Shown in pieces: positions 52,552-57,420 of a stretch of 64,000 nt of DNA. Made by a program: the position numbers and the translations under genes. The notes under the pieces were generated by a model that ran no database searches, had not been told where the DNA came from, and was given only the letters and a program-made list of their open reading frames with translations. Within the stretch, counting starts at the first letter, position 1, and each line of letters begins with the position of its first letter. This DNA is from Pseudomonadota bacterium. Lineage in GTDB: Bacteria > Pseudomonadota > Gammaproteobacteria > Burkholderiales > Eutrophovitaceae. The stretch covers positions 1-64,000 of the forward strand of contig JAQBTV010000003.1 in assembly GCA_027624715.1 (NCBI GenBank), given 5' to 3'.

Positions 52552-55500
52552 ATGACAAACTTAAAAGACAATCCGCTTACCGATCCCGCCGGCATTGGGG
52601 CAAAAATAAGATTTGTGACTGCGGCCAGCCTTTTCGATGGCCATGATGCCTCCATCAATATCATAAGACGAATGCTGCAAGGCAGTGGCACGGAAGTTAT
52701 TCACCTTGGACACAATCGGTCTGTCGACGAAATCGTTACAGCTGCGGTTCAAGAGGATGCGAAAGGTATCGCCGTTAGCTCTTATCAAGGCGGCCACATT
52801 GAATATTTCAAATATATGATCGATCTGCTCCGCGAAAGAGGCGTCGGACATATTCGGGTGTTTGGTGGCGGTGGTGGCGTCATCGTCCCAACTGAAATTA
52901 AAGAACTACACGAATATGGCATAGCGAAAATTTACTCACCCGAAGATGGCGCTACCATGGGTCTTCAGGGAATGATCGACGACATGATCCAACGGGCACG
53001 AAAGGCGAAATCACCCGCTTTAGTTGGCTCCCTTGACTCAATCTCCAAATCTGCTCACGGCGAGCTGGCAAGAGTAATCTCGGCTATCGAAGACAAATCG
53101 ATAGATAGCGATTTCTATCAAAGCATCTTGGCCCACGCAGGAAGCCTGGTAAACAAGATTCCCGTCCTGGGTATAACAGGCACTGGAGGGGCGGGGAAAT
53201 CTTCATTAACCGATGAGTTAATTCGACGGTTTAGACTTGATGAAGGAGACAACCTCAATATCGCAGTCATTGCCGTTGATCCATCTCGACGCAAAACAGG
53301 TGGCGCGTTATTGGGCGATCGCATTCGAATGAATGCGCTTGACGGCGTAAAGATATATATGCGCTCACTTGCAACCCGAAGCGGGGGGAGAGAGGTGGCT
53401 GATTGCCTGCCTGGAGCCATCGCGGCATGTAAGTGTAGCGGGTTTGATCTAATCATTATCGAAACCTCAGGCATTGGCCAAGGTGACGCCGCAATAGTGC
53501 CTTTTGTAGATGTATCCCTATACGTCATGACCCCAGAATACGGCGCAGCTAGCCAGCTTGAGAAGATAGACATGCTCGACTTTGCTGATCTCGTTGCGAT
53601 AAACAAATTTGATCGCCGCGGCGCTGAGGATGCGCTTCGCGATGTATCAAAACAATATCAACGCAATCACCAGAAGTTCAACGAAAGCCCGAGTGCTATG
53701 CCCGTTTTCGGGACGATCGCATCACGATTCAATGATAGTGGAGTGACTGCACTCTATCACACCGTCGCTGATGCTCTAGTCGAACATGGTCTGGTGAGGG
53801 TAGGCCGAAAACTGCCTAACGTCAAAGGCAAATCCTCTACAAAGGTCACCAGTATTATTCCTCCTGATCGGACGCGCTACCTTGCGGAAATTTCAAACAC
53901 CATACGTTCATACAAAAAACGTGTGCTCACCGAATCACGTTTAGCGCGCGAACGCCAACAACTTAAATCTGCAGCTGCCATAGTTAAGGAAGAAACAAAC
54001 GGAGATGTATCGCACATTCAACGTTTAGTTTCTGACCGAGACCATAGACTCCATCCGAATAGTAAAAACCTCCTCTCTAATTGGCCTAAACTCAAAAATA
54101 CGTATTCGGGAGAGCACCACATTGTAACAATACGAGAAGAAGAAATTCGCACAGAACTTAAATATCAGTCATTGTCAGGCAGCCTGATACCTCGAGTCTC
54201 ATTACCTAAATTTGAAGATGAAGGTGAAATCCTGAAGTGGCTACTGCTCGAGAACCTGCCTGGATATTTCCCGTTCACAGGCGGCGCATTTCCTTTCAAA
54301 AGAGAAAATGAAGACCCAACAAGAATGTTTGCTGGCGAAGGAGATGCATTTAGAACAAATAAACGCTTTCACCTTCTGTCCAAGGATATGCTCGCGAAAC
54401 GGCTATCAACAGCTTTTGATTCGGTCACGTTATATGGCTTTGACCCAGACCTGAGACCTGATATATACGGAAAAATTGGCAATTCAGGAGTATCAATTGC
54501 CACACTTGAGGACATGAAAGTTCTTTACTCAGGATTTGATCTTTGCGCGCCAACGAACAGCGTCTCCATGACAATCAACGGTCCTGCACCAACGATTCTC
54601 GCTATGTTCATGAATACAGCCATTGATCAACAATTCGACAAGTTCAAGGAGCAAGAAGGACGAGAACCCTCTGAAGCCGAAAAAGATAGCATCAAAAAAC
54701 AAACCCTGAGCACCGTAAGGGGAACAGTACAAGCGGATATTCTCAAAGAAGATCAGGGGCAGAATACCTGTATTTTTTCTACTGAGTTTAGTTTGAAAGT
54801 CATGGGCGATGTGCAGCAATACTTCATTGACCAAAATGTTAGGAATTTCTACTCGGTTTCCATCTCCGGCTACCATATCGCCGAAGCTGGCGCCAACCCG
54901 ATTTCGCAGCTTGCATTTACGCTCAGTAACGGATTTTCTTTCGTTGAAGCTTATCTAGCACGCGGCATGAAAATCGACGATTTCGCGCCAAACTTAAGTT
55001 TCTTTTTTAGTAATGGCTTGGATCCTGAATACACTGTTATAGGCAGGGTAGCTCGAAGAATATGGGCAGTCGCTATGCGAGATCGTTACGGAGCAAACGA
55101 GAGATCACAAAAACTAAAATATCACTGCCAAACATCTGGTCGATCGCTGCACGCTCAAGAAATTCACTTCAATGACATTAGAACCACGCTTCAGGCCCTA
55201 ATCGCGACCTATGACAATGCGAACTCTCTGCACACAAATGCCTATGATGAGGCCATCACCACACCTACAGAGGAGAGTGTACGTCGCGCTATGGCAATAC
55301 AGTTAATTATTAATCGCGAGTGGGGGCTAGCAAAAAACGAAAACTCCAACCAAGGCAGCTTTATTATTGAAGAACTTACTGATTTAGTAGAAGAGTCTGT
55401 GCTCAAAGAGTTCGATTCAATTTCCGAACGAGGGGGTGTGTTAGGTGCCATGGAGCTGGGATACCAAAGAGGAAAGATCCAAGAAGAGTCATTATATTAT

Positions 55501-55818
55501 GAGCATAAAAAACATGATGGTAGCCATCCGCTAATCGGCGTCAATACATTCCGAAACCCGAACGGGGATACCAAGCTGGAACCAGTCGATTTAATTCGCT
55601 CATCCGAGGAAGAGAAGCAATCTCAGCTTAATCGGCTCAAAGCATTTCAAGAAAAACACAGCGACGAATCTGCAGCGATGCTAGAACGGCTACAAACTGT
55701 TGTCATTCAAAATCAAAACGTATTCGAAGTTCTCATGGATGCCGTTCGCGTGTGTTCGTTGGGCCAAATCAGCCATGCGTTATTTGAGGTTGGCGGAAAA
55801 TACCGAAGGTCTATGTAA
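52552..55818 (+). CDS. icmF: Fused isobutyryl-CoA mutase IcmF
   Basis: 1088 residues. B12-binding domain at the N-terminus with FDGHD (H31 is the lower axial cobalt ligand), then a MeaB-like G-protein chaperone with P-loop GTGGAGKS (210-217) and NKFD guanine motif, then the mutase TIM barrel (from about 530) with [19 protein letters not shown]. IcmF interconverts isobutyryl-CoA and n-butyryl-CoA, and some members act on isovaleryl-CoA/pivalyl-CoA. It ends with the usual [11 protein letters not shown] tail. It links valine and leucine catabolism to the neighbouring liu cluster. Confidence 0.96.
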
Positions 55819-55980
55819 CATTTCAGTGTTGAGCTCGTTGACGTTGGCGCGACCATTTATGATATCGTTGAAAAACTCAGAGCGCTCTGTTGTACATACC
55901 AGGAAAATCCAGCGTTTTAGGTCTTTGATTCGCTGCGTAACTGCAATTGCTGTAAATCACGAAAGAGTAGGTTGCCCCAC

Positions 55981-57024
55981 ATGAAAATTATCCCTTATCT
56001 GGATTTTCACCCTAAGGTCTCTGAGCACTGTTCAAGCCAGCGTTGGGTCTCCATCATAGGCCGAACTACCATAGGTGAACGCTGCCACTTCGAAGATCTT
56101 GTAACTTTACGAGCCGATGGAGAAGCAATTAACGTGGGCTCAGAATGTTGGTTTGGCGAGTATGCAACAGTTCATATTGCTGATAGTACTCATGGGGCGA
56201 TATTGGGCAATCACGTAACGGTGGGTAGATTTGGTCTCGTACACGGATGTACGATTGCTGAAGACTGTTTACTAGGCGAACATGCCGTAGTCATGGATAA
56301 CGCAAACGTTGGCAAAGGATCTGTAATCTGCAGCGATAGCGTTGTTCCTACGGGCAAGCAGCTTGAGCCTGGCTGGCTTTACCAAGGAGTGCCTGCCAAA
56401 CCAATACGAAAAATTGAACCCGACGAGCTTGAACAACTTCGAGACATCGTCAAATCTAGAAAAAGTGGATCCGGGGCAGAGTGGGTTCTTTCAAAAAATC
56501 CAGTAGCCGGCATTAAACATGAGCCAGGACAAGGTATCCCGGAACATGCTGGCGATGACTTTTACATAGCCCCCACTGCAGCTGTCGTAGGCCATTTAGA
56601 AATAGCGGCAGAGTCGAGCATCTGGTTTGGAGTTGAAATAGCGGCTAAAAATGCTTCAGTCTCATTAGGAACAGCGAGTAACATTCAAGATAACTCACGA
56701 ATTACTCTAGACCCTGGTGAGCACCTCAAAATTGGAAAGCGCGTCACCATAGGCCATAACGTACGATTAAATGCTTGTGACATTGGCGACAATTGCATCA
56801 TTGGTATGGGCTCGTCAATAGGAAAAGGTACCATCGTTCAAAACAGAGGCGTCGTAGCTGCAGGCGCAGTCACCACTCCGAATACCGTAGTCATCGAAGG
56901 AATGATTTGGTCAGGAAATCCAGCAAGACAATCTCGACCTCTCTCGGATGAAAACACAAAGCTTTTCTCGTTCGGCGTTGATGTCTACAAGCAATACGCC
57001 AAAAACTATAAAAAAAACCCGTAG
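55981..57024 (+). CDS. Tandem gamma-carbonic-anhydrase-like hexapeptide protein
   Basis: 347 residues from the ATG at 55981 (a TTG three codons earlier is possible). Two left-handed beta-helix domains, about 12-150 and 185-325, each with hexapeptide repeats. In the three zinc-histidine positions domain 1 has H65, R83, H88 and domain 2 has T242, H259, N264. Each alone is incomplete, but together they supply a full set across a domain interface. Single-domain relatives are gamma-CAs/PaaY/CaiE proteins, trimeric. It follows icmF by 162 bases. Confidence 0.8.
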   Translation: MKIIPYLDFHPKVSEHCSSQRWVSIIGRTTIGERCHFEDLVTLRADGEAINVGSECWFGEYATVHIADSTHGAILGNHVTVGRFGLVHGCTIAEDCLLGEHAVVMDNANVGKGSVICSDSVVPTGKQLEPGWLYQGVPAKPIRKIEPDELEQLRDIVKSRKSGSGAEWVLSKNPVAGIKHEPGQGIPEHAGDDFYIAPTAAVVGHLEIAAESSIWFGVEIAAKNASVSLGTASNIQDNSRITLDPGEHLKIGKRVTIGHNVRLNACDIGDNCIIGMGSSIGKGTIVQNRGVVAAGAVTTPNTVVIEGMIWSGNPARQSRPLSDENTKLFSFGVDVYKQYAKNYKKNP

Positions 57025-57064: not shown

Positions 57065-57223
57065 ATGACGCTCGACGAGAGACTTAGGTCTATCCGCCAT
57101 ACAGACCTATTTAAAATCGCGATTCCGATCATGATTGCTAACGTATCAACTCCCCTCATTGGAGTCTTAGATACGATAATTATTGGTTAAGTCCCCGATC
57201 CAGCACTGATTGGTTCCTTCTCC
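57065..57223 (+). pseudogene. MATE exporter N-terminal remnant
   Basis: An ATG at 57065 opens about 50 codons: DLFKIAIPIMIANVSTPLIG and VLDTIIIG are the first helix of MATE/DinF-type exporters; after a TAA at 57188-57190 the same frame continues VPDPALIGSFS, matching the conserved loop (usually GHLPDPAxLGA) before a second stop. The rest of the gene is absent. In another frame 57211-57303 reads a hydrophobic WFLLLTKSMLISTLLFF segment that may be the last helix of the same gene after a large deletion (speculative). Confidence 0.6.
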
Positions 57224-57420
57224 TAACAAAGAGCATGCTTATTTCAACGCTGCTATTTTTCATTACTTGGAAGGGTCTGGAGGACTTTAAAATTCTGGCC
57301 TAAGGATCGCGCTACTCAGTCCTTGTTTCTATCGAACACTCACGCTCTGCTTACAGTTACCAAAGGCAGTTGGAGCGTTCGCCGAATACAAAGCTAGCGG
57401 AGACTAGGTTGAGCAGATTT
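57224..57420. other. Intergenic region with no intact gene
   Basis: Apart from the possible last-helix fragment of the MATE remnant at 57211-57303, nothing coding is recognised. It separates the remnant from the convergent dicarboxylate symporter gene. Confidence 0.4.

Follow-up and report, generated by a model that had tools for sequence, protein, structure and literature searches.

A tandem gamma-carbonic-anhydrase-like protein whose two domains may share a single catalytic interface

The window (the whole 64,000 nt stretch of DNA that was analysed) carries an open reading frame for a protein in which two gamma-carbonic anhydrase (gamma-CA) domains are joined in one chain, here called the fused protein. 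The start Met of the reading frame is common to homologues. Coordinates of the gene, its upstream neighbors and the residues discussed below are in Table 1. No structured RNA was detected in the window at gathering thresholds.

Table 1. Features of the fused gamma-CA-like gene and of the sequences upstream of it
Feature	Position	Strand	Remarks
Fused isobutyryl-CoA mutase/GTPase IcmF, upstream gene	52552..55818	+	NF045497, 1903 bits vs 1500-bit cut-off
hcmA (2-hydroxyisobutyryl-CoA mutase large subunit) C-terminus remnant	55819..55921	+	scar left when hcm genes were lost
Fused tandem gamma-CA-like protein gene, 347 aa (P0001)	55981..57024	+	ORF, ATG 55981 to stop 57024; homologues with same Met
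Domain 1 (D1), residues 1-160, left-handed beta-helix	55981..56460	+	keeps face with Arg/Asp and outer two zinc histidines
R44-A-D46, equivalents of gamma-CA Arg45/Asp47 (gamma-PmCA numbering)	56110..56118	+	invariant in D1, lost in D2; PMC8000050
H65, first zinc histidine (Cam His81 position)	56173..56175	+	invariant
R83, in place of middle zinc histidine (Cam His117 position)	56227..56229	+	98% Arg among homologues (weighted)
H88, third zinc histidine (Cam His122 position)	56242..56244	+	invariant
Linker, residues 161-190	56461..56550	+	fast-evolving, dN/dS about 0.41; low-confidence in homologue model
Domain 2 (D2), residues 191-347, left-handed beta-helix and C-terminal helix	56551..57021	+	keeps opposite interface face
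N234-I-Q236-D237, gamma-CA Asn-x-Gln-Asp motif	56680..56691	+	kept in D2, lost in D1
T242, first histidine position of D2	56704..56706	+	relatives: T/Y/V/D/H/A/E/L/R and others
H259, middle zinc histidine, only triad His of D2	56755..56757	+	invariant
N264, third histidine position of D2	56770..56772	+	relatives: N/G/F/H/D/A/E/Q
Y336, Y339, Y343 of C-terminal helix, interface tyrosines	56986..57009	+	kept in D2 only; equivalent to gamma-PmCA Tyr161/164/168 (PMC8000050)

The scar between IcmF and the fused gene is still translatable as the HcmA C-terminus: VELVDVGATIYDIVEKLRALCCTYQENPAF. The fused gene has thus outlived the hcm operon in the window, and because it was kept after the hcm genes were lost, it cannot serve the HcmA mutase alone. 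In the close relatives L024 and L025 an intact hcmA is found at the position of the scar, and L026 seemingly has only a remnant. Downstream, at 57065-57404, lies a decayed MATE-family transporter gene, of which N- and C-terminal parts survive, with stops and with a large stretch missing from the interior. In L024 the MATE-family gene is intact and directly follows the fused gene.

A reading made earlier from the sequence alone (the sequence-only reading) had placed tandem gamma-CA domains at this locus, and both halves do match gamma-CA models as well as solved gamma-CAs. The solved proteins match each half separately, with best E values of 1.5e-22 for D1 and 1e-28 for D2. NF050158 aligns to two separate segments (whole-protein E 3.6e-53) but stays below the NCBI equivalog cut-off; the PaaY and CaiE models also match twice each, below their equivalog cut-offs (for TIGR02287, PaaY, 108.8 bits vs 319.6). 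The gamma-CA fold of beta-helix and C-terminal helix is met by both domains in sequence and in structure (Z about 24-27, 1.3-2 A). Alignment by motif gives the zinc-ligand positions exactly as had been claimed, H65/R83/H88 in D1 and T242/H259/N264 in D2, which leaves one full set of histidines (H65, H88, H259) for two domains. The Arg/Asp and Asn-x-Gln-Asp interface residues of gamma-CAs are likewise present once per chain, divided between D1 and D2. Since the protein has neither a full triad per subunit nor the single-domain form, it is, as judged from its sequence, a gamma-CA by descent and not a standard member.

Full-length fused relatives were collected from the same genus and family, the order, the class, GTDB genome contigs and a further Pseudomonadota family. 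The set comprises about 50 homologues from Pseudomonadota, at 33-85% identity; the GTDB contigs make up 44 loci, nearly all labelled Pseudomonadota MAGs. A search of viral contigs for fused gamma-CA relatives found none. It should be noted that two D1 patterns served to fetch the GTDB loci, and since R83 and H88 are part of one of them, the frequencies of these two residues are biased upward. H65 and all of D2 lie outside the patterns and are free of this bias, and the genus/family, order, class and further-family relatives were fetched with whole proteins or profiles, not with a D1 pattern.

Wherever they can be read (about 50 homologues), H65, H88 and H259 never vary, in contrast to the remaining three triad positions, which have drifted or been lost. 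In an alignment of 45 sequences, D1 positions 1 and 3 are His throughout (45/45), the D1 middle position is Arg in 42, His in two and Lys in one, and the D2 middle position is His in all 43 sequences that have a D2. Variation is wide at the outer two triad positions of D2, with at least ten different residues at position 1 and at least seven at position 3. One additional distant member displays H/M/H in D1 and L/H/Q in D2; five members of another Pseudomonadota family display H/R/H in D1 with R/H/G or R/H/A in D2. Because three histidines are invariant while the remaining positions vary, the conservation pattern does not appear to be a product of chance. Random loss of histidines from each domain, which would have refuted the sequence-only reading, was looked for across the family and was not seen; H65/H88 and H259 are always co-conserved. 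R83 is nearly fixed (its frequency being favored by the fetching pattern), and random decay would therefore not account for it. A complete His triad is found in D2 of three members, L030, L031 and L032, and in D1 of two, L059 and L060, which have His at the Arg83 position. A second or altered site is possible in these five and is not excluded by their sequences. The fused protein of L060, from a 6409-bp contig labelled Vicinamibacteria, is very close to that of the alphaproteobacterial L059, and the contig is likely mis-binned rather than the product of a transfer.

The split between domains extends beyond the zinc ligands. A published interface table sorts the contact residues of the gamma-CA trimer into two faces: face A with Arg45, Asp47, His66, His89 and the N-terminal strand, and face B with Trp39, Gln60, Asp61, His84, Met101 and the tyrosines of the C-terminal helix; an Asp-Arg-Asp* ionic triad spans the interface (PMC8000050, Table 2). 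The faces were mapped onto D1, D2 and 30 single-domain gamma-CAs of the same taxonomic order as the window's genome; the assignment thus depends on a table drawn from other gamma-CAs. Eleven face positions are conserved in at least 90% of the single-domain proteins (n=30). Mean retention over the five positions of face A is 0.90 in D1 vs 0.11 in D2, and over the six of face B it is 0.16 in D1 vs 0.97 in D2. Conserved positions outside the interface are retained at 0.49 in D1 and 0.69 in D2. All 11 interface positions lean as predicted (by coin-toss about 1 in 2000, a guide only, as the positions are not independent). These retention values argue that each domain would be a partner with a single face, D2 presenting the one opposite to that of D1. 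The complementary pattern that had been proposed for H65/H88 of D1 and H259 of D2 holds, and the Arg/Asp, Asn-x-Gln-Asp and Tyr residues of the interface are divided in the same way.

The faces that are not used have changed in composition. On the free face of D1 (the beta-helix part of face B) 47% of residues are charged and 2% are large hydrophobics, vs 13% and 41% in the single-domain controls. The free face of D2 (face A, catalytic positions omitted) is 26% charged vs 8% in controls. In both domains the kept faces resemble those of the controls, and outside the interface the charged share is 16-17% in every group. The D1 free face has a conserved Arg83 and, at position 100, a conserved acidic residue; by inference they perhaps form an internal salt bridge that seals the dead site. 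As the free faces did not stay hydrophobic, a ring closed by a third domain is not indicated. A second gamma-CA was not found in the window's genome at E<=1e-5, and only weak partial matches appear there and in six genus relatives at E<=1e-4; in some relatives single-domain gamma-CAs do coexist with the fused protein. The charged free faces, with no second gamma-CA beyond these weak matches, favor a two-domain, one-site unit over a trimer, although the oligomeric state is inferred.

AlphaFold2 modeling of the single chain with 38 family members gave a pLDDT of 95.4 and a pTM of 0.93, and a 33%-identical homologue modeled with its own alignment reached a pTM of 0.90 despite a poorly ordered linker. 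Because these pTM values are high for a two-domain chain, the models place D1 and D2 relative to each other with confidence. That H65, H88 and H259 come together, and what faces are in contact, is inferred from conservation, without coordinates or distances. Derivation of the docking orientation from structural-alignment ranges was dropped as too indirect, with deviations of many Angstroms in short stretches. In VIA-align comparisons PDB 3c8v, a putative acetyltransferase of Desulfovibrio desulfuricans G20, superposes as a single chain, with its parts similarly arranged, on both domains of the window model (Z 29.1, 3.0 A, 296 aligned) and of the homologue model (Z 27.8, 3.5 A, 301 aligned); the remaining strong structural matches cover essentially one domain. 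The 3c8v protein differs in sequence, however, with 14-15% identity and a position outside the best 60 sequence matches (all E<=0.005), and no literature on its function was found.

In a phylogeny of 21 D1s, 21 D2s and 30 single-domain proteins (maximum likelihood), the D1s form one clade (100/100) and the D2s another (100/96), the latter on the single-domain side of the midpoint-rooted tree. With D1s and D2s each in one clade, a single duplication-fusion would explain the sampled family. Comparison with a close relative gave dN/dS of 0.16 overall, 0.15 in D1, 0.13 in D2 and 0.41 in the linker, values that indicate purifying selection on the fused gene.

We consider it probable that the protein is a single-chain, single-site variant of the gamma-CAs; this refers to the architecture and not to the chemistry, and the metal and the meeting of the histidines are inferred. 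In the proposed scheme a gamma-CA gene would have been duplicated and fused once, and the domains would then have specialized as two halves of a single interface. D1 would give the face with Arg44, Asp46, His65 and His88, and D2 the opposite face with Asn234, Gln236, Asp237, His259, Met276 and the C-terminal-helix tyrosines. At the D1/D2 contact each chain may hold one catalytic metal, probably zinc, although metal binding is inferred. Two of the three sites in the ancestral three-fold ring would have been abandoned, with the D1 free face strongly charged (R83, acidic residue 100) and that of D2 moderately so. The protein would probably be a two-domain, one-site unit and not a closed trimer, the absence of a third domain again being an inference. 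The asymmetric enzyme with one complete site at the D1/D2 interface, as envisaged in the sequence-only reading, is thus supported by the co-conservation, the interface partition and the AlphaFold2 docking. Charging of the two free faces, which speaks for a two-domain unit over a trimer, had not been anticipated in that reading.

Loss of histidines by neutral decay of a pseudo-enzyme after duplication could be suspected from the state of the flanking genes in the window's genome, with the hcmA scar upstream and the broken MATE gene downstream. However, both domains are constrained in the comparison with the close relative (dN/dS 0.16), and H65, H88 and H259 are kept by every homologue examined. 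Decay is hardly credible on this evidence, and the earlier statement that the pattern is not decay is upheld by the dN/dS value. Gamma-CAs are as a rule homotrimers (PMC8000050), and a closed trimer of D1s beside a closed trimer of D2s would have no complete site, since the D1-D1 and D2-D2 interfaces of the window protein all lack a full triad. Such a catalytically dead scaffold is very improbable: it leaves the invariance of H65, H88, R44, D46, Q236, D237, H259 and Y336 unexplained, D1 face B with its charge and near absence of large hydrophobics is a poor trimer surface, and AlphaFold2 docks D1 to D2 within one chain. The chain could also fill two places of a ring with one complete site, the third place being taken by another left-handed beta-helix subunit, either a different protein or a further copy. 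Heterotrimers with one zinc site do exist in plants (PMC7447434, PMC9873573), and a partner might bind the D1 free face at the conserved R83 and the conserved acidic residue 100. However, the window's genome and the genus relatives offer no second gamma-CA beyond weak partial matches, both free faces have lost hydrophobics and gained charge, and the free triad positions of D2 are hypervariable; a third subunit is therefore unlikely, though less so than the dead scaffold.

Gamma-CAs are textbook cases of active sites common to identical subunits. The CamH/YrdA-type enzymes (homotrimers; e.g. PDB 3tio, 1v3w, 9qev) share with the fused protein the beta-helix, the C-terminal helix, the zinc histidines, Arg/Asp and Asn-x-Gln-Asp, as well as the supply of two histidines by one partner and the middle one by the other. 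Normally, each of their chains has a single domain and three chains make three sites, whereas the fused protein has two non-equivalent domains that between them contain one complete residue set. It would function like a single interface of a gamma-CA trimer. The CA1-CA2-CAL heterotrimer of plant complex I offers a parallel in complementary histidine loss that leaves a single complete zinc interface (PMC7447434), a likeness that rests, for the fused protein, on sequence pattern. However, the plant proteins are three separate chains on respiratory complex I with the third subunit present, and the fused protein is one bacterial chain, encoded beside acyl-CoA mutase genes and probably without a third subunit. 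PaaY and TrlF of the phenylacetate and tropone pathways resemble it in fold, type of metal site and setting among genes of CoA metabolism, and they act on CoA thioesters (PMC11110157), but each is a homotrimer that carries three zinc sites. The openly licensed literature searched yielded no account of a gamma-CA that is fused and has a split site, and the fused single-site variant is apparently undescribed.

In 16 of 38 loci (window excluded) the fused gene lies directly 3' of the gene for the large subunit of a B12 acyl-CoA mutase, on the same strand and within 143 bp. The adjoining large subunits carry the motifs RQIAGF and STDFD, whose residues Ile90 and Asp117 we take to mark the 2-hydroxyisobutyryl-CoA mutase HcmA. 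Ahead of the large-subunit gene come those for the small subunit and for a MeaB-type GTPase, often joined by one for a PaaK-like CoA ligase. In L039 and L057 the place of the mutase is taken by a 2-hydroxyacyl-CoA lyase-type TPP enzyme (NF058623; L057 779 bits, above cut-off). The hcl-hcm-meaH operon has been described, and the lyase is an alternative route; no fused gamma-CA-like gene is named in the part of that source available (PMC7176365).

In the gamma-CA fold, CO2 is hydrated by metal-bound hydroxide. The gamma-CA-fold proteins PaaY and TrlF act as zinc thioesterases, and metal-bound hydroxide is thought to cleave the CoA thioesters (PMC11110157). A PaaY-like CoA-thioester hydrolase is slightly favored over CO2 hydration for the fused protein, because its gene neighbors make or use 2-hydroxyacyl-CoA esters; the preference is an inference and neither activity can be called likely. 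Hydrolysis would be by metal-bound hydroxide, again an inference, with metal binding and activity unproven. Catalysis is not assured in any case, since many gamma-CA homologues have little or no measurable carbonic anhydrase activity (PMC12648627). In the plant heterotrimer, butyryl- or crotonyl-CoA is bound at the His-deficient interface (PMC9873573). It is also quite possible that the single site is real and that the protein is a plain carbonic anhydrase that supplies or removes bicarbonate, the link to CoA-ester genes being incidental. All residues of the gamma-CA catalytic interface are present once, the fused gene survived the loss of the hcm genes, and no beta-CA match is found in G002, G006 and G014; in the genus members G002 and G006 a second full-length gamma-CA is missing as well. 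However, the window's genome does have a beta-CA, adjacency to 2-hydroxyacyl-CoA enzymes recurs in diverse loci where CO2/bicarbonate is no obvious reactant, and the thioesterases PaaY and TrlF have the same fold. Taken as a whole, the conversion of an obligate three-chain, three-site enzyme into a one-site, two-domain chain without trimer surfaces, and its recruitment as a metal-dependent thioesterase of 2-hydroxyacyl-CoA metabolism, is put forward only tentatively.

The fused family represents a natural experiment in symmetry breaking within one chain and reveals what residues are indispensable to each half of the interface. The protein would also be a one-site scaffold, each side of which can be changed independently. 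The gene further draws attention to a step around 2-hydroxyisobutyryl-CoA that is still unassigned; this CoA ester is of relevance to the degradation of fuel ethers and branched compounds.

Other gene settings are found in some alphaproteobacterial relatives. In the marine alphaproteobacterial loci L052, L053, L055 and L056 an upstream gene for a DRL_cat (SAF-type) oxidoreductase overlaps the fused gene by a few bases, and genes for a phytanoyl-CoA dioxygenase-like protein and a gamma-glutamyltransferase lie next to it, which makes the pathway setting a different one. In L040, L042, L045, L049, L054 and L060 the fused gene is followed, after 115-193 bp and in the same orientation, by a tartrate-dehydrogenase-like gene (cluster 12), and a gene of similar length occupies this position in L059.
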